This document shows, in pieces, positions 3,001-31,678 of a stretch of DNA of 33,104 nt. The notes under the pieces are model-generated. The model did not search any database. It saw only the letters and a program-made list of their open reading frames with translations, and was not told the DNA's origin. Both the position numbers and the translations under genes were made by a program. Location: contig JAUXWT010000008.1 of NCBI GenBank assembly GCA_030681475.1, positions 1-33,104 of the forward strand. The letters are read 5' to 3'. Every line of letters starts with the position of its first letter. Position 1 is the stretch's first letter. This DNA comes from Bacteroidales bacterium (lineage in GTDB: Bacteria > Bacteroidota > Bacteroidia > Bacteroidales > FEN-979).

Positions 3001-4245
3001 AGCAACAGATCCTCCATAATAGGATGACCAGATGCGCTGGCCGGTACTGTTAAATTTTCCGAAACAAGCATTATAAAATCCGGACAGATTAGTCTGATAG
3101 GCGCCAGGACTTGCGATATTGGTTGGAGAGTCTGTATTTCCCGCAAAAAATAAATTATTGTTTTCATCCAGCGAGATTGATGACAAATAATCATCTCCGG
3201 CTCCGCCAAAATAGGTCGCCCAGTTCCGTTCACCGGCGGTTGTAAAACTGGCGATCAAACCATCCTGGCCGCCTTTGAGGGTGGTTTGAAATGCTCCTGT
3301 AGTTGCAATGTTATCAGCAGATGAAGTTTCTCCGCATAAATAGATATTGCGATCCATTCCAAACTTTATATCCATAAATCCATCGAAGTCAGATCCTCCG
3401 TAATAGGTTCCCCACATGCGGGTCGGATAGGGGTCGATCACCAAAGTTGAATGTTCCGGTAAAGCCTGATCAACCGCAAACCCATAGATATCCTCCCCGG
3501 TTTTTACGAATCTGACATTAACATCTACCTTCGATTGGCCTGACTGACAGAAGCTTTGAGGGATCTCTTCTTCTATTGTGCCTATTGTGTTTATTATTTT
3601 CAACGACCCCGAAGAAGTGATCACAATTTCAGGATCTGTAATTTTCATCCGGATCGAAGACAGTTTTCCCTCCGGATGAACCACGAAATTGTACTTTACC
3701 CCCGATTCCGGAGCGGTGAAAAATTCCAGGTCAATACCGGGATAGATATTTTTGTAAGTGACCGTTTGATATGAATGAACAAACGTAACTCCTTCAACAG
3801 GCGTTCCGGTGGTGTAATAATTCCGGAAGTCTTCCGATGGCCCGGATGTGATAATTTCGCACTGAGGGTTGGAACCGATTAGGTCGAAGTCGATGCGGTG
3901 GAACTTGTAATTGGTCAGGGTTGAATCTGGTTCTGTTTTCGTGACACGTGACGCGTGACGCGTGACACATGCCGCGGAACGCGAAACTTCAATATTCGAT
4001 ATTCGTTGTTCAATATTCGATATTCCATAGAGATCGTAACTAAATCCTCCCCTCCGCAACTGCACATTCATCCCGGGGGTATTCAACAGATACAAAACCG
4101 CGGGATTGGGTTTGTTATTCTGATCAATGACCTGGCCTTTGTTTTCGATAAAACCCCGCTTCGAATTGCCGGTAAATGGCTTGACGGAAGCCTGGCAGGT
4201 ACAGCAAATAATCAGCAGGAACAGGATGATCCGGAATCTGTACAT
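1..4245 (-). CDS. Secreted SBBP-repeat, Ig-like and FISUMP-domain protein (C-terminus beyond window)
   Basis: The frame is open from ATG at 4245 through base 1, giving 1,415 residues with no stop, so the gene is cut by the left edge. Residues 4-19 are hydrophobic and look like a signal peptide. Next comes the FIENKGQ opening usual for Bacteroidota SBBP proteins. About seven repeats of 60-70 residues, with motifs such as WGTYYGG and DNISTPG, fill roughly 275-690. Two PKD/Ig-like segments follow (about 735-900), then three closely related Ig-like units of about 90 residues (about 903-1172). From about 1262 there is a FISUMP (Fibrobacter succinogenes major paralogous) domain, with DIRDNRTYPTVQIG and GLCPPGWHVPTENEW, ending here at FWSSTSSGQY. 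Such proteins are exported, but their exact role is unknown. Two heptamer arrays lie inside the frame (274-315 and 3941-4024). The domain calls are firm; the function is inference. Confidence 0.88.
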   Translation of the reverse strand, partial: MYRFRIILFLLIICCTCQASVKPFTGNSKRGFIENKGQVIDQNNKPNPAVLYLLNTPGMNVQLRRGGFSYDLYGISNIEQRISNIEVSRSAACVTRHASRVTKTEPDSTLTNYKFHRIDFDLIGSNPQCEIITSGPSEDFRNYYTTGTPVEGVTFVHSYQTVTYKNIYPGIDLEFFTAPESGVKYNFVVHPEGKLSSIRMKITDPEIVITSSGSLKIINTIGTIEEEIPQSFCQSGQSKVDVNVRFVKTGEDIYGFAVDQALPEHSTLVIDPYPTRMWGTYYGGSDFDGFMDIKFGMDRNIYLCGETSSADNIATTGAFQTTLKGGQDGLIASFTTAGERNWATYFGGAGDDYLSSISLDENNNLFFAGNTDSPTNIASPGAYQTNLSGFYNACFGKFNSTGQRIWSSYYGGSVAELGTGIFADQNGYIYLCGIAYSPDNIATPGAHQPTSGGGEDSFLVKFSTDGNRIWGTYYGGSCRDKALSVIGDQSGVVFLTGETTSPDNISTPGSHQPLLGNPPCIYTISDGYLVRFSSDGVRQWGTYYGGASLDHMQSIAISADENVYICGSTTSQDNISTPGSFQPGWVGLPDHANLFLVKFNYAGQRSWATYYGGTYGEGNDSDVMVDDSLNVFIASDTHSSDNISTPNSYQPALPANGIYSVIAFLVKFNPQGERQWGTYYGDTITTLIRGLTYDGDTIYACGGTSDLNRIASAGAFQTTLGGSSDGMIVKFADCYNPDSAGMISGPDTVCSGVPVVFSVPAIPFAQNYLWEFPAGATIVIGQNTNSVTVIFGTGTIPGFIVVRGENTCGPGSPNSKWLNVNPSPIPVISGDNEICQDNMVIYQTDPGNMLYLWDVSVGGSILTGGTLTDDFAGVSWSVPGPQWITIQYTDTNGCVAIDPAIFNVNVASQNPVSVTVSASENNICAGASVTFTAIPVNAGSNPIYQWQVNGINAGTNQSTYNYLPADNDIVQCSLFSNLTCTLNNPATSNAVTMVVNQVLPVSVTISPGANPVCAGTNVIFTANPVNVGSSPAYQWKVNANNASNGNNTWFTYTPVNGDVITCEVSSSELCISGNPALSNPVTMVVHANLPAGIIIAASANPFCSGSAVTFTATAVNGGSTPLYQWKVNASNASNGNNAVFTYNPVDNDQVQCILTSDLTCVTGNPAVSGMIIMTGLPAPTVTFLNCFDAVTTINAQPFKLKGGLPLGGTYSGPGVNSTTSMFSPLLAGTGTKSITYSYTNASLCSDSKSQTIIVTPTPMFTCGNTLADIRDNRTYPTVQIGAQCWMQANLEFGVEIPEFNPQTDNCLVEKYVHNSTFVNQYSIFYQWDELMRYNATPGSQGLCPPGWHVPTENEWNTLFNFYQGYALAGKPLQYNMISGFMALPGGIFYQNSSWSFLDFATIFWSSTSSGQYRAI
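274..315. repeat. Heptamer array, GAATATT family, inside the FISUMP coding region
   Basis: Six consecutive 7-bp units follow the pattern GAATATT, with variants such as GATTAAC, GAATGTT and GAATTAT; the last unit (309-315) is weak. The 42 bp equal 14 codons, so the host frame survives. It encodes HNSTFVNQYSIF on the minus strand. Confidence 0.75.
730..1535 (-). repeat. Three tandem Ig-like coding repeats of about 270 bp
   Basis: The marker CCATTGATAT (plus strand) recurs at 871, 1141 and 1408, spaced 270 and 267 bp apart. The encoded units share the motifs CAGTNVIFTA, YQWKVNA and NPVTMVV with small changes. They look like recent in-frame duplications of one Ig-like domain in the surface protein. 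Confidence 0.8.
3941..4024. repeat. Twelve-unit phase-locked heptamer array inside the SBBP gene
   Basis: The 84 bp divide into twelve 7-bp units with no slip. Units 1-4 are of the GTGACRC type (3941-3968), units 5-7 are transitional (3969-3989), and units 8-12 are of the CAATATT/CGATATT type (3990-4024). The length equals 28 codons, and the host minus-strand frame stays open as ISNIEQRISNIEV followed by SRSAACVTRHASRVT. Confidence 0.85.
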
Positions 4246-8784: not shown

Positions 8785-8818
8785 GAATCAGAAATCCGAA
8801 ATCTGAAATCTGAAATCC
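8785..8818. repeat. Heptamer array, GAAATCY family, abutting a stop codon
   Basis: Four exact-length units GAAATC(C/T) run from 8791 to 8818, preceded by a partial unit GAATCA (8785-8790). The first base follows the TAA (8782-8784) of the barrel protein. Confidence 0.85.
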
Positions 8819-8824
8819 AATTTT

Positions 8825-9134
8825 ATGAAACCCAATCATTTGTTAATAGGTTTGTTGTTTTCATTTTCAGCATGGGGACCCGGGGCAACATGGCAGGTTG
8901 CGCCCGATCCTGATGACCACCTTCTCGATGATCTTCGGCATGATGCCCATTGCCCTGGCTTCGGGCGCCGGGTCGGAGTGGAAGAACGGTATGGCGTGGG
9001 CGCTCATCGGAGGTTTGACCAGTTCTCTCTTCCTCACGCTGATCGTGGTGCCGGTAGTGTATTACATCGTGGATAAGTTGAAGGAGAAGGTCACCAAAAA
9101 GAAAAATATTTACCCATTATCCGTGACGAATTGA
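8825..9134 (+). pseudogene. Chimeric remnant of an efflux operon: signal peptide fused out of frame to an RND pump C-terminus
   Basis: From 8825 the sequence encodes a secretion signal (MKPNHLLIGLLFSFSAWG) of the kind that begins an outer-membrane efflux protein. A different frame then carries the last transmembrane part of an RND (AcrB/HAE1-type) transporter, from about 8889 to the TGA ending at 9134: GRLRPILMTTFSMIFGMMPIALA, GSEWKNGMAWALIGGLTSS and FLTLIVVPVVYYIVDKLK (split here only for reading). The join falls near 8876-8890. Usual gene order is TolC-like protein, adaptor, RND pump, so the remnant fits a deletion of several kilobases with only the operon ends kept. An assembly join is the alternative. 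The RND identity is firm; the identity of the first fragment is inference. Confidence 0.75.
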
Positions 9135-9155: not shown

Positions 9156-9578
9156 TCAGGCTCCCTTCATTTTGAACACCGTCGCATAAAGTTTCATCTG
9201 TTTGATCATCGAAGACAACCCGTTGCTGCGGGTCGGCGACAGGTGCTCCTGCAGCCCGATACGGTCGATGAACTCCATTCTGGCCTGCATGATCTCTTCG
9301 GGTGTTTGGTCGGAAAGCACCCTGATCAGCAGGTTCACGATGCCTTTGGTGATGATGGCATCGCTGTCGGCAGTAAAAACCACTTTTCCGTCGTTTAATG
9401 CGGCATGAAGCCAAACCTTCGATTGGCATCCGGTGATAAGGTATTGGTCGGTTTTATACTGTTCATCAATGACCGGAAGTGTTCTTCCAAGTTCTATCAG
9501 GTAATTGTACTTGTCCATCCAGTCGTCGAACATGGCGAACTCACTGATGATTTGGGTTTCGGTTTCGGGGAGGGTCAT
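9156..9578 (-). CDS. sufE: SufE-like cysteine desulfurase sulfur acceptor
   Basis: From the ATG at 9578 the protein has 140 residues, normal for SufE. It takes persulfide sulfur from SufS for Fe-S cluster assembly. The acceptor cysteine is C51 in YLITGCQSKVWL, and the family motifs YLIELGRTLPVI and LSPTRSNGLSSMI are present. A longer frame runs upstream to 9632, but that part is encoded by spacer and repeat DNA and lies upstream of the promoter box, so 9578 is chosen. A SufS-type gene on the same strand lies 2.8 kb away, separated by the PadR-PspC pair. The octamer array begins 12 bp upstream of this gene's -7 box. Confidence 0.93.
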   Translation of the reverse strand: MTLPETETQIISEFAMFDDWMDKYNYLIELGRTLPVIDEQYKTDQYLITGCQSKVWLHAALNDGKVVFTADSDAIITKGIVNLLIRVLSDQTPEEIMQARMEFIDRIGLQEHLSPTRSNGLSSMIKQMKLYATVFKMKGA

Positions 9579-9598
9579 ATGTGGTGGTTTTGGGATGG

Positions 9599-9606
9599 CA
9601 AAGGTA
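9599..9606 (-). promoter_or_regulatory. -7 box of the sufE promoter
   Basis: On the minus strand this is TACCTTTG (TAnnTTTG), 20 bp before the ATG at 9578. The expected -33 position (about 9626-9629) falls inside the G-rich octamer array and has no TTTG. Confidence 0.65.
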
Positions 9607-9618
9607 GGGAAAAAGGGT

Positions 9619-9697
9619 GGACAAGGGGACAAGGGGACAAGGGGACGGGGGGACGGGGGGACGGGGGGACGAGGGGACGAGGGGACGAGGGGACGGG
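9619..9697. repeat. Octamer array 1 (GGACRRGG), 9.9 units, 3' of the S23-like gene
   Basis: Ten 8-bp units, the last one base short, run without slip. There are three GGACAAGG, three GGACGGGG, three GGACGAGG and a final GGACGGG. The variants come in blocks of three. The array ends one base before the stop codon (9699-9701) of the four-helix-bundle gene. Its plus strand carries G4 runs every 8 bp, which suits quadruplex formation. Confidence 0.95.
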
Positions 9698-9698
9698 T

Positions 9699-10079
9699 TT
9701 AACTTTTTTGCAAATCAATCCTTTTTTGAATAGCTTTGATCAGATTACTGATTTGTAGCGTAATAATTTTAATTTGTTCAAGTATTTTTTTCGTATTATC
9801 CTGTGAAAGATATCCAATTTGAGCAGCAATGATTACAAGTGTTTCCAATTCTGATAAACTGCCAAAGGAAATTCGCAGGAATCGTATATAATCCCTTGAA
9901 GATCCCCTTGCTACTCCTTCTGAAATATTAGCCGCTATTGACACGCCTGCCCGCCGTATTTGAGAAGTCAGACCAAAAATCTCACTTTTCGGAAAGTCCG
10001 AAGTTTTCTGGTAAATTTCAATTACAAGTGCAACAGTGCCTTTGTAAACATCAAGGTCTCTATGCGTTTTCATGGACAA
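9699..10079 (-). CDS. Four-helix-bundle protein of the 23S rRNA intervening-sequence (S23/IVP) family
   Basis: The 126-residue protein opens MSMKTHRDLDVYKGTVALV (an in-frame ATG two codons later is equally possible). It contains the family core FGLTSQIRRAGVSIAANISEGVARG at about residues 40-64, then RFLRISFGSLSELETL. The family folds as a four-helix bundle. Members were first found as ORFs inside intervening sequences of 23S rRNA genes, where inverted repeats form a processed stem, and they are related to the Avd accessory protein of diversity-generating retroelements. No rRNA gene is near. Octamer array 1 abuts its stop, and array 2, in inverted orientation, lies 143 bp upstream of its start, so the gene looks like a discrete cassette. 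The family is firm; the function is unknown. Confidence 0.9.
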   Translation of the reverse strand: MSMKTHRDLDVYKGTVALVIEIYQKTSDFPKSEIFGLTSQIRRAGVSIAANISEGVARGSSRDYIRFLRISFGSLSELETLVIIAAQIGYLSQDNTKKILEQIKIITLQISNLIKAIQKRIDLQKS

Positions 10080-10203
10080 TTGAGTTAATTGGAATATAGT
10101 GCAGTTTGTAAAAACATTCGTTCACCTGCTTTATGTTTAATAGGAGAATCGGTGAAAAGTGAGCAGGAAAATGAAAAAAGTTATAAACAAATTACATGAT
10201 AAT

Positions 10204-10293
10204 CCCCCCGGCCCCCCGGCCCCTTGTCCCCTTGTCCCCTTGTCCCCTTGTCCCCTTGTCCCCTTGTCCCCTTGTCCCCTTGTCCCCTTGTCC
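10204..10293. repeat. Octamer array 2 (CCTTGTCC), inverted relative to array 1
   Basis: Nine perfect CCTTGTCC units fill 10222-10293, preceded by a C/G run with two CCCCGG-like units (10204-10221). Read on the minus strand this is GGACAAGG nine times, the complement of array 1 across the S23-like gene. The 10080-10376 gap holds nothing else recognisable apart from the PadR promoter region. Confidence 0.95.
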
Positions 10294-10329
10294 CCTTTTT
10301 TAAACCAAATGTTAATAATTCATAAATTA

Positions 10330-10376: not shown

Positions 10377-10709
10377 ATGAACCCGGAAAATCAAAATGCC
10401 CAGATGCGAAAAGGAGTCCTTGAACTCTGTATCCTGGCGATCATTGCAGCGCAGGACGCTTATGCCTCCGACATCATCACGAAGTTAAAGGAGGCCAGAC
10501 TCATTGTTGTTGAAGGAACATTGTACCCTTTACTGACAAGGTTGAAAAACGATGGCCTCACCGTGTACCGCTGGGAGGAGTCGAAATCGGGGCCTCCGAG
10601 AAAGTACCACCAGATCACTGAACCGGGAAAGAGGGCTTTGGCAGAACTTAAGTCCGACTGGCAGAACCTGATCACATCGGTCGAAAAAATAATCGGAGAA
10701 AAACAATAA
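10377..10709 (+). CDS. PadR family transcriptional regulator
   Basis: The 110-residue protein is a compact winged-helix PadR regulator. It shows QMRKGVLELCILAIIAAQDAYASDI (helix 1-2), then IVVEGTLYPLLTRLKNDG with the recognition helix, then the wing WEESKSGPPRKYHQITEPGK. Helix 4 at the C-terminus would mediate dimerisation. It is followed after 36 bp by a PspC-domain gene, a frequent pairing in Bacteroidota, so it probably controls that operon in response to envelope stress or an unknown ligand. The start at 10377 matches the usual N-terminus of the group, even though the promoter box lies only 4 bp away. Confidence 0.93.
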   Translation: MNPENQNAQMRKGVLELCILAIIAAQDAYASDIITKLKEARLIVVEGTLYPLLTRLKNDGLTVYRWEESKSGPPRKYHQITEPGKRALAELKSDWQNLITSVEKIIGEKQ

Positions 10710-25662: not shown

Positions 25663-25689
25663 CCCCCATCCCGCCTGATATATCCAGCC

Positions 25690-25745
25690 AGCAGTCAGAA
25701 GTCCGCAGTCAGTAGTCACTTGTCACCTGTCACTTGTCACTTGTC
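25690..25745. repeat. Eight-unit heptamer array, NNNNGTC family, carrying a stop codon
   Basis: The 56 bp divide exactly into eight 7-bp units all ending in GTC: four of the AGCAGTC/AGTAGTC type (25690-25717), then four of the ACTTGTC type (25718-25745). Read on the minus strand, the latter are GACAAGT. The TGA of the alkaline phosphatase (25730-25732) and its last residues TSDK are written by this array. Confidence 0.9.
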
Positions 25746-30992: not shown

Positions 30993-31634
30993 TCATCCCG
31001 GCTTGGCGATCTCAAAGAGCGCTGAGCCGGAGGCGCGTACATAGTATTCTCCCCCCAGTCGCCCTACCAGGTCGATCTTGTGGGGGTCTATCCTTCCATT
31101 ATCGTCCATTACCGCCGGGTTCACATGGATACGCAATATCTCGCATATCACCAGGTTTCCTGCTGCCGGACCATCTCCGGTTTCGATCACCTGGAGTACC
31201 TTGCATTCAAACTGTACCGGAGATTCTTTCACCCTGAAGGGTTTAATAAGGTCAGATGGCTGCATGGTGAACCCAACCATGTTGAATTCGTTGACACCTT
31301 TCGGAAAATCAGCGCTGGAATCGCTTACCTTTTGAACCATGTCAAATGTTACTGCATTGATCACCACCTCGGGAACCTCTTTGATATTTTCGTAGGTATG
31401 CTTTGTGGTATTGTCAAGTCCACGCCGTGAAGGTGAAAATACAACGATGGGCGGATTGGCGCCAAATGCATTGAAAAAGCTGAACGGGGAAAGATTCGGA
31501 TTCCCTTGCAAATCAATGGTACTTGCAAAAGCAATCGGACGAGGGGCGATGGCGCCAAGCATCAGGTGATGAAATTTTGGTACTGAAATTTCATTTGGAT
31601 CGATGTGCAGGTATTCCTGGGGAAGAGAAACCAT
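30993..31634 (-). CDS. Flavin reductase-like (FMN-binding split barrel) protein
   Basis: The 213-residue protein has the split-barrel flavin reductase fold: LMLGAIAPRPIAFASTID at about 25-42, then NLSPFSFFNAFGANPPIVVFSPS at about 47-69, and EVVINAVTFDMVQKV. These proteins bind FMN and reduce it or use it directly. Here the gene lies 21 bp downstream of fumarylacetoacetase and upstream of the aromatic hydroxylase, so it probably belongs to the aromatic amino acid operon; a distinct step in that pathway is not established for it. The gap to the hydroxylase gene holds the palindrome block. Confidence 0.88.
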   Translation of the reverse strand: MVSLPQEYLHIDPNEISVPKFHHLMLGAIAPRPIAFASTIDLQGNPNLSPFSFFNAFGANPPIVVFSPSRRGLDNTTKHTYENIKEVPEVVINAVTFDMVQKVSDSSADFPKGVNEFNMVGFTMQPSDLIKPFRVKESPVQFECKVLQVIETGDGPAAGNLVICEILRIHVNPAVMDDNGRIDPHKIDLVGRLGGEYYVRASGSALFEIAKPG

Positions 31635-31635
31635 G

Positions 31636-31678
31636 GAGATTTACGATTATGGGATTTACGATTTTTGATTTTTGATTT
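31636..31678. repeat. Heptamer array, NNGATTT family, spanning the fumarylacetoacetase stop
   Basis: Units GAGATTT, ACGATTA, then after one extra T GGGATTT, ACGATTT and two TTGATTT can be read. The stop codon TAA of the fumarylacetoacetase (31656-31658) and its last residues QIKNQKS are encoded by the array, which ends 2 bp from the start codon of the flavin reductase gene. Confidence 0.8.

Follow-up and report, generated by a model that had tools for sequence, protein, structure and literature searches.

The S23 Gene and Its Flanking Arrays

The window, the whole stretch of 33,104 nt analysed here, corresponds to contig C106 of a Bacteroidota-like draft genome of 4.24 Mb that is 98.67% complete. 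An SRP RNA of the Bacteroidales type was detected in another genome from this order. Positions 9699–10079 code on the minus strand for a 126 aa four-helix-bundle protein of the S23 (23S_rRNA_IVP) type that starts with TTG (an ATG is found at 10073). The profile search gave 113.2 bits to PF05635 (cut-off 33.8; 8.3e-33; residues 7–110) and 111.7 bits to TIGR02436 (cut-off 24; 1.9e-32). Both curated cut-offs are exceeded and the gene is thus a member of the S23/IVP family. The nearest solved chain is 2gsc (E 1.4e-26). The gene sits between the divergent neighbours sufE (9156–9578, minus strand; PF02657, 1.6e-48 on 9156–9587) and padR (10377–10709, plus strand; PF03551, 1.2e-17), both outside the element, and belongs to no operon. 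No Rfam match was found in the window and the element lies outside a 23S rRNA gene.

The S23 gene is bracketed by two tandem arrays of octamers, which have the two highest TRF scores of the window. The array at 9619–9695 is built on the plus strand from the G-rich units GGGGACAA, GGGGACGG and GGGGACGA (TRF period 8, 9.6 copies, 95%, score 112). It begins 3 nt beyond the S23 stop codon and, read in the S23 sense, is the C-rich 3′ arm. The array at 10204–10297 (minus strand) is composed of CCCCTTGT, which reads GGGGACAA on the S23 sense strand, and provides the G-rich 5′ arm. TRF assigned period 8, 9.8 copies, 100% match and score 156 to its segment 10220–10297, while inner variant units CCCCCCGG occupy 10204–10223. 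A leader of ~125 nt (10080–10203, minus strand, read off the sequence) separates the 5′ array from the S23 start; the gap between the arm and the HMM start has a median of 81 nt in relatives. The arms are inverted over 87 nt with 85% complementarity and a spacing of 517 nt, the 9619–9695 array pairing with 10215–10301. Three copies of GGACAAGG complement CCTTGTCC perfectly, three of GGACGAGG do so with one mismatch and three of GGACGGGG with two.

A first-pass annotation, made from the sequence alone, had placed an S23-like gene between inverted octamer arrays, with three perfectly complementary units and one or two mismatches in the others. Its coordinates agree with the profile search, TRF and the inverted-arm analysis, and its unit count is correct when checked against the sequence. 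The long stem that it imagined around the gene is also found in the predicted fold: the RNA of 9600–10315 (minus strand) closes as a single long stem with −271.9 kcal/mol, compared to −188.4 (sd 4.2) for 20 shuffles (z −19.8).

Other features of the window were recorded in passing. Heptamer arrays that enclose no S23 gene are present at 274–305 (GAATATT), 3940–4029 (CGTGACA/TTCGATA), 8786–8818 (AATCCGA), 25685–25745 (CAGTCAG/GTCACTT) and 31633–31678 (GATTTAC/GATTTTT); they are possibly solo arrays of other S23 lineages. What is left at 8913–9131 of a transporter of the AcrB/RND type is a C-terminal piece of 73 aa (PF00873 positions 968–1020). The segment 13771–15978 carries in tandem a C5 cytosine methyltransferase, a 249-aa ORF matching neither Pfam nor PADLOC and a Vsr endonuclease, likely a type II restriction-modification set.

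Framing of S23 Genes by Inverted Arrays

S23 genes are known from many phyla. To score their framing, 450 nt of left flank were aligned locally with the reverse complement of the right flank, a score of at least 30 being taken as framed. The first-pass annotation pictured the window element as a unit standing alone, which is contradicted by its own genome: there are ten PF05635 matches, seven of which are framed, each by its own unit, and three unframed. The units are GGGGACAA (the window), GGTAACA/GGTGACA, TTAAGTT, GACAAGT, TGATTTGA and two irregular ones (L004 and L009; periodicity 0.57).

Relatives were searched for S23 genes between inverted short repeats, as the first-pass annotation had advised, and the arrangement proved widespread. 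The order-level set comprised 136 distinct matches, of which 11 were dropped for short flanks, leaving 125 scored rows from 41 genomes. Among these best-scoring of the matches listed, 105 of 125 rows score at least 30 and 89 at least 40; one broken gene (L311) accounts for two rows, so that 104 of 124 genes are framed. The set takes the best-scoring matches first and under-samples weak S23 genes, for which the framed proportions are 38/50 at 60–90 HMM bits and 3/5 below 60 bits. In a second set of titled public loci from many phyla, mostly metagenome drafts, 48 of 73 loci are framed (80 loci, seven dropped). The two sets overlap at two loci (L116/L311 and L161/L335). Plasmid loci, picked from 38 records with a match and scored without a control set, are framed in 11 of 12 cases; eleven are cyanobacterial and the twelfth is the Azospirillum locus L364, in rRNA. 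Because the frame is present in complete plasmid records, it is not an assembly artefact of draft genomes.

Controls reached the threshold rarely. Swapped flanks did so in 26/994 cases of the order-level set and 15/724 of the titled set, windows from the same loci in 2/773 (315-nt gap, relatives' loci) and 24/2632 (titled set), and other small ORFs of the same loci in 6/87. Framing is not universal: 20 of the 125 order-level rows and 25 of the 73 titled loci score below 30. Most S23 copies at a conserved flavobacterial site belong to this class, and some of them lack clear arrays. This is a result that counts against the first-pass annotation, which had named S23 genes without arrays at the same locus as evidence against its proposal.

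Units are mostly 7–8 nt long, and the arms match each other within a locus and not between loci. Among the framed order-level loci the better arm has period 7 in 65/105 and period 8 in 31/105, and its periodicity reaches at least 0.7 in 90/105. The 5′ arm is richer in G than in C in 94 order-level loci, poorer in nine and equal in two; the corresponding ratios are 42:3 among the 48 titled loci and 11:0 in the plasmids. As the arms are inverted, the frame shows this G-rich 5′ polarity whichever strand is read. Conversely, 930 kb of loci were inspected for periodic inverted pairs, and an S23 gene was found inside 63 of the 69 pairs with a loop of 300–600 nt and inside 66 of the 85 pairs of any loop length; these loci were chosen for S23, though S23 regions make up a small fraction of their sequence. 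Some of the S23-less pairs enclose other genes adjoining S23. In an Acidobacteria draft (L090, 4461–4985) an rpsG-like gene (assigned by eye) next to S23 is bounded by inverted arrays of the same GTAAATC-type word.

The selection acting on S23 was estimated from 11 related pairs. Their dN/dS ratio is 0.07–0.18 in seven (four with dS above 1 and hence rough); two others have no amino-acid change, one has a single change and no silent one, and one is saturated. S23 is under purifying selection as judged by these pairs, the window copy being outside the test.

The Repeat Unit Follows the S23 Lineage

The relation between unit and protein was examined in non-syntenic pairs drawn from 96 framed loci (score of at least 33, HMM match of at least 85 aa). 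Between different genomes, the fraction of pairs sharing a unit rises with S23 identity from 41/3716 (<45%) to 29/490 (45–55%), 41/113 (55–65%) and 26/35 (≥65%). Within one genome, the shared pairs in these classes number 0/110, 1/11, 1/2 and 3/3. A Mantel test of unit against S23 between genomes gave r = 0.366, compared to a maximum of 0.082 in 500 permutations. Pairs and same-site loci are mutually dependent and most relatives are draft genomes, which should be kept in mind when reading these figures. Since none of the 110 dissimilar pairs within a genome share a unit, the word is a trait of the element rather than of its host genome. L266 and L276 illustrate this association: they occupy unlike sites, are 77% identical and have one unit.

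The sufE–padR and sdhA–sdhB Sites

Nineteen congeners, including the genome of the window, were searched for the sufE–padR site. The padR gene was found in 13 and sufE was within reach in 11 of these. S23 occupies seven of the 11 readable sites and is absent from four; the arrays of the occupied sites are clear except in G017, where they have decayed. Empty sites had been recommended for search by the first-pass annotation, and three of the S23-less sites keep remnants of arrays: L267 and L269 have a short palindrome of the GGTGAAC word and L262 a fragment. Comparison by eye of occupied and S23-less sites for a target-site duplication showed arrays that extend to the edges and S23-less sites with remnants. 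The remnants read as a scar or a seed. Given the related-unit palindrome at L267 and L269, it may be that the arrays came first and S23 later.

The occupants of this site are diverse. The S23s of G012, G014 and G018 cluster together (support 1.0) and their arrays use GGTRAACR words, while those of G008, G013 and G017 form a second group (support 0.68), with GGACRRGY words in two of them; the sister of the latter group is L276, from another site of G018 (0.87). The window S23 is 46–54% identical to the six other occupants and its position in the tree is weakly supported (0.23). A tree of host genes places G017 beside G012 and G014 (0.82), though its S23 belongs to the other group. In G008 the S23 gene is flipped with the polarity of the frame unchanged. 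The common ancestor of the seven S23s spans 17 of the 77 proteins in the tree, including S23s from other sites. Part of the diversity at the same site could be old vertical divergence.

A second recurrent place is the junction between sdhA and sdhB (names by Pfam), where S23 is found in several members of the order as well as in two Cerasicoccus. The common ancestor of six S23s from this junction spans 58 of the 77 proteins. Where S23 is missing, an array of 7–8-mers is found at 16 of 24 junctions (3/1200 in shuffles), the word often changing from one species to another.

Dispersed Arrays of the Units

The units are also found away from S23 genes. Word counts are given as overlapping triple matches, not as places. 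The triple GGGGACNN has 112 matches in the genome of the window, including 14 at the S23 element, compared to 9, 1 and 1 in three congeners and none in 15 others. The triple GGTRAACN reaches 218, 135 and 116 in the three genomes having that S23 group at sufE–padR, compared to 10, 10, 4 and 1 in four congeners and none in twelve. Two further words, counted in 41 family genomes, have more matches outside the elements when a cognate element was seen (Mann-Whitney p 7.4e-4 and 6e-5). All four unit families thus show the dispersed repeat accompanying the master lineage (p 0.015, 0.013, 7.4e-4 and 6e-5), with exceptions. At least 20 matches were counted in genomes with no cognate element seen: G000, G012, G026, G031 and G063 for one of the two further words, G000, G018 and G008 for the other. 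Cognate status rests on part of the S23 loci of these genomes, and the strict pattern for “cognate” missed G014 (GGTRAACN) and G000 (GTRACANN), both of which were counted as non-cognate. In G018, GTRACA arrays at C39:2442–2551 and C39:3403–3456 flank an S23 match at C39:2599–2865, at a distance too large for the count.

The window unit occurs in its own genome at no fewer than 28 places devoid of S23, with a single orientation at all of those listed except on C14. There (L011, 1501–1554) a GGGGACAA array runs in frame within a family-9 glycosyltransferase ORF (343 aa, PF01075), and an inverted partner array (L011, 2057–2078) is positioned just beyond the stop codon of this ORF, with no S23 match between the two. 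Arrays without the gene, named beforehand as an observation against the link, are common and to that extent weaken it. They are nevertheless largely accounted for because their unit tends to be the one that goes with the genome's own S23 lineage.

Interpretation and Rival Explanations

The segment 9619–10297 is probably one small mobile element made of S23 and, on either side of it, inverted arrays of the 8-nt unit cognate to it, a reading that we favour with some reserve. Array-framed S23 looks like a small mobile element previously unrecognised as such. The suggestion of a mobile element had been made from the window, and is supported by the different S23 lineages found at one site, by similar elements at unlike sites and by the unit tracking the S23 lineage. 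The earlier interpretation was thus largely right in kind, and the scope of the observation is far wider than visible from the window alone.

The S23 protein would bind its own unit, in the transcript stem or as DNA, and so act as a specificity factor. When the element is within a transcript, RNase III could cut the stem and make the insertion tolerable, while the dispersed solo arrays would be copies or relics of the same process. Neither a recombinase nor a nuclease or reverse transcriptase is encoded within the frame of the window element. An RNA route that relies on a reverse transcriptase from elsewhere is proposed in view of the kinship of S23 with Avd; movement via RNA with the enzyme acting in trans is the most speculative step of the model. 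An alternative would be a DNA route via cruciforms, with which the S23 inversion in G008 fits. A test for RNA pairing was null, with 55 arm differences keeping pairing through G·U and 54 not keeping it (35 loci). This warns against relying on RNA pairing, and the case for an RNA stem is consequently drawn from predicted folding and from the parallel with rRNA intervening sequences (IVSs).

The principal competing idea, which we consider unlikely, takes the arrays for pre-existing chromosomal repeats or palindromes that offer a landing site to a homing S23 and are not the ends of an element. It accommodates the palindrome of a related unit at L267 and L269, the arrays at 16 of 24 S23-less sdhA–sdhB junctions (3/1200 in shuffles) and the observation that in S23-filled loci (L170, L171, L191, L196, L066, L076, L080, L041) the array begins at the sdhA TAG stop codon. 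Against it, units are alike in 26 of the 35 pairs at unrelated sites with at least 65% identity and never in the 110 dissimilar pairs within a genome. To explain this, each S23 would have to pick its own unit only, which makes S23 unit-specific again.

A somewhat smaller chance is given to an immobile host regulatory module, in which the stems are hairpins for mRNA processing or termination and S23 is a resident RNA-binding regulator. The patchy presence among sister species and the different lineages at one site argue against it, as do the S23 genes within 23S rRNA and cas operons, the lack of an excess of pairing-keeping changes (55 versus 54) and the location of the window copy between divergent genes. 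On its side are the highly stable predicted stem, the recurrent sdhA–sdhB position, the purifying selection in related pairs and gene orientation: S23 is co-directional with both neighbours in 66/92 cases and opposite to both in 7/92, compared to 43/87 and 14/87 for the control small ORFs (crude ORF-based gene calls); the window copy has a mixed orientation. That no special link exists, and that S23 fell by chance between two arrays of an array-rich genome, is very improbable; the 28 or more S23-less places of the window unit could suggest it, but 105 of the 125 scored rows are framed, compared to 2 of the 773 same-locus windows, and arms match within and not across loci.

The small mobile element thus being preferred, a more general proposal can be formulated, which we advance tentatively and would not be surprised to see fail. 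S23 proteins may provide the specificity for a novel class of recombinase-less mobile elements, in which each lineage would recognise a private 7–8-nt word, enclose itself between inverted arrays of this word and seed or spread further arrays of it in the genome. The rRNA IVSs that bear S23 would then be the best-known, atypical members of the class, and many heptamer arrays of Bacteroidota, Cyanobacteria and Xanthomonas would be its satellites. This offers a common origin for two puzzles, the S23-bearing rRNA insertions and the dispersed heptamer arrays. S23 proteins are described as having no known function (PMC4990558; the papers designated here by PMC number are cited from extracts of their text), and the lineage-specific array word leads directly to a biochemical hypothesis, that is the behaviour of an S23 protein on its own versus a foreign array.

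Other candidates were discarded. A GIY-YIG nuclease was considered as a second cargo or helper, and none of the six scorable ones among eight small genes is array-framed; one of these loci (L205) scores 30 from a non-periodic hairpin. The only GIY-YIG match of the window's own genome is in a 612-aa open frame, which we take to be UvrC. In Winogradskyella psychrotolerans (L129, 3720–4140) a small GIY-YIG-like ORF (by eye) lies between 26-nt inverted repeats, and a similar inverted pair is present at L149 (3654–4041). A phage origin was dismissed as a search of the phage collection with the window S23 found nothing, and a general role of G-quadruplexes because many units, such as TTAAGTT and ATTGACA, have no G runs.

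Comparison with Known Systems

No description of array-framed S23 genes or of the tie between S23 lineage and repeat unit was found in the literature covered, a scope outside which most subscription papers and bioRxiv lie. Extracts of several papers bear on S23 genes: 18 of them are reported within cas loci (PMC3936711), the family is named in the legend of a CRISPR-screen figure (PMC10910872), S23 ORFs occur in 16S and 23S insertions of CPR bacteria (PMC11270868), and four-helix genes are listed for Flavobacterium columnare (PMC5524665) and Arthrospira (PMC8700078). Among our loci, three cyanobacterial plasmids carry S23 in cas operons (L354, L360, L363; cas6–S23–cas4 twice and cmr2–S23–cmr3 once), with arm scores of 56, 29 and 61, respectively.

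The first-pass annotation had invoked a kinship with rRNA IVS cassettes, and this is sustained by two cases on which the rRNA link rests. On a replicon of Azospirillum lipoferum 4B (L364) an S23 insertion is located within the LSU rRNA (2529 bits), and its arms, which score 47, are made up of the heptamers GGACGGA, TGACAGA and GGACAGA, with a periodicity of 0.66 at 7 nt. According to PMC4990558, the IVS of Coxiella forms a 28-bp stem, two to three GACAGAT heptamers stand ahead of its S23 ORF, and RNase III removes it. L364 is the only one in rRNA among the loci tested: two 23S motifs had no match in 259 loci, and Rfam had none in ten. IVSs with an S23 ORF, as in Coxiella and Leptospira (PMC4990558), likewise hold this ORF in a loop between terminal inverted repeats, and such repeats around the S23 ORF are found in the window element. 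Unlike an IVS, the latter has protein-coding genes on both sides, and its unit recurs in arrays scattered over the genome.

The likeness between PF05635 and Avd, the cofactor of diversity-generating retroelements, has been noted (PMC10053308, extract). It is weak for the window S23 (PF22296, bAvd, 18.0 bits, cut-off 40, E 0.0041; NF033474, 17.8 bits, cut-off 80) and clearer for L098 (33.4 bits). The window S23 differs from the Avd of such retroelements by being under both cut-offs and by a frame without reverse transcriptase; neither a reverse transcriptase nor template/variable repeats were found among the subset of window genes scanned with Pfam. GxxExxY genes (PF13366), which code for a predicted nuclease unrelated to S23, are present in 35 of 61 genomes, in multiple copies and with many short fragments. 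Inverted arms scoring at least 30 flank 20 of the 30 scored (L230–L259; same order, no control set). Compared with those of S23, their units are longer (~9–12 nt) and less regular, some arms are non-periodic and the G-rich 5′ rule is not followed (9:7). These frames may represent a sister system or a helper.

Dispersed, mostly intergenic heptamer arrays have been described in Xanthomonas and Nostoc, some of them as convergent inverted pairs in Xanthomonas (PMC4692102), and TAACTGA repeats in Beggiatoaceae, Cyanobacteria and Bacteroidetes (PMC4679880). Both are dispersed 7-mers, like the solo arrays of S23 units. PMC4679880 was searched for the terms S23, four helix and intervening sequence, and PMC4692102 for S23, four helix, IVS and XCC0516; no mention of any was found.

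The genomic pattern of the window system invites a further comparison. In REP/RAYT systems a master gene is flanked by inverted short repeats and the cognate repeat is dispersed in the genome. REPs are also treated in PMC3733652 (extract). The window system resembles them in its flanking inverted repeats and its dispersed cognate unit, and differs in two respects: S23 is a four-helix bundle and not a Y1 (HUH) transposase, its gene matching PF05635 and, weakly, bAvd only, and the repeats are tandem 7–8-mers instead of 20–40-bp palindromes. This suggests a master-and-satellite system of the REP/RAYT kind built on an unrelated protein. S23 with its cognate arrays is best read as IVS-like in build and REP/RAYT-like in genomic pattern.
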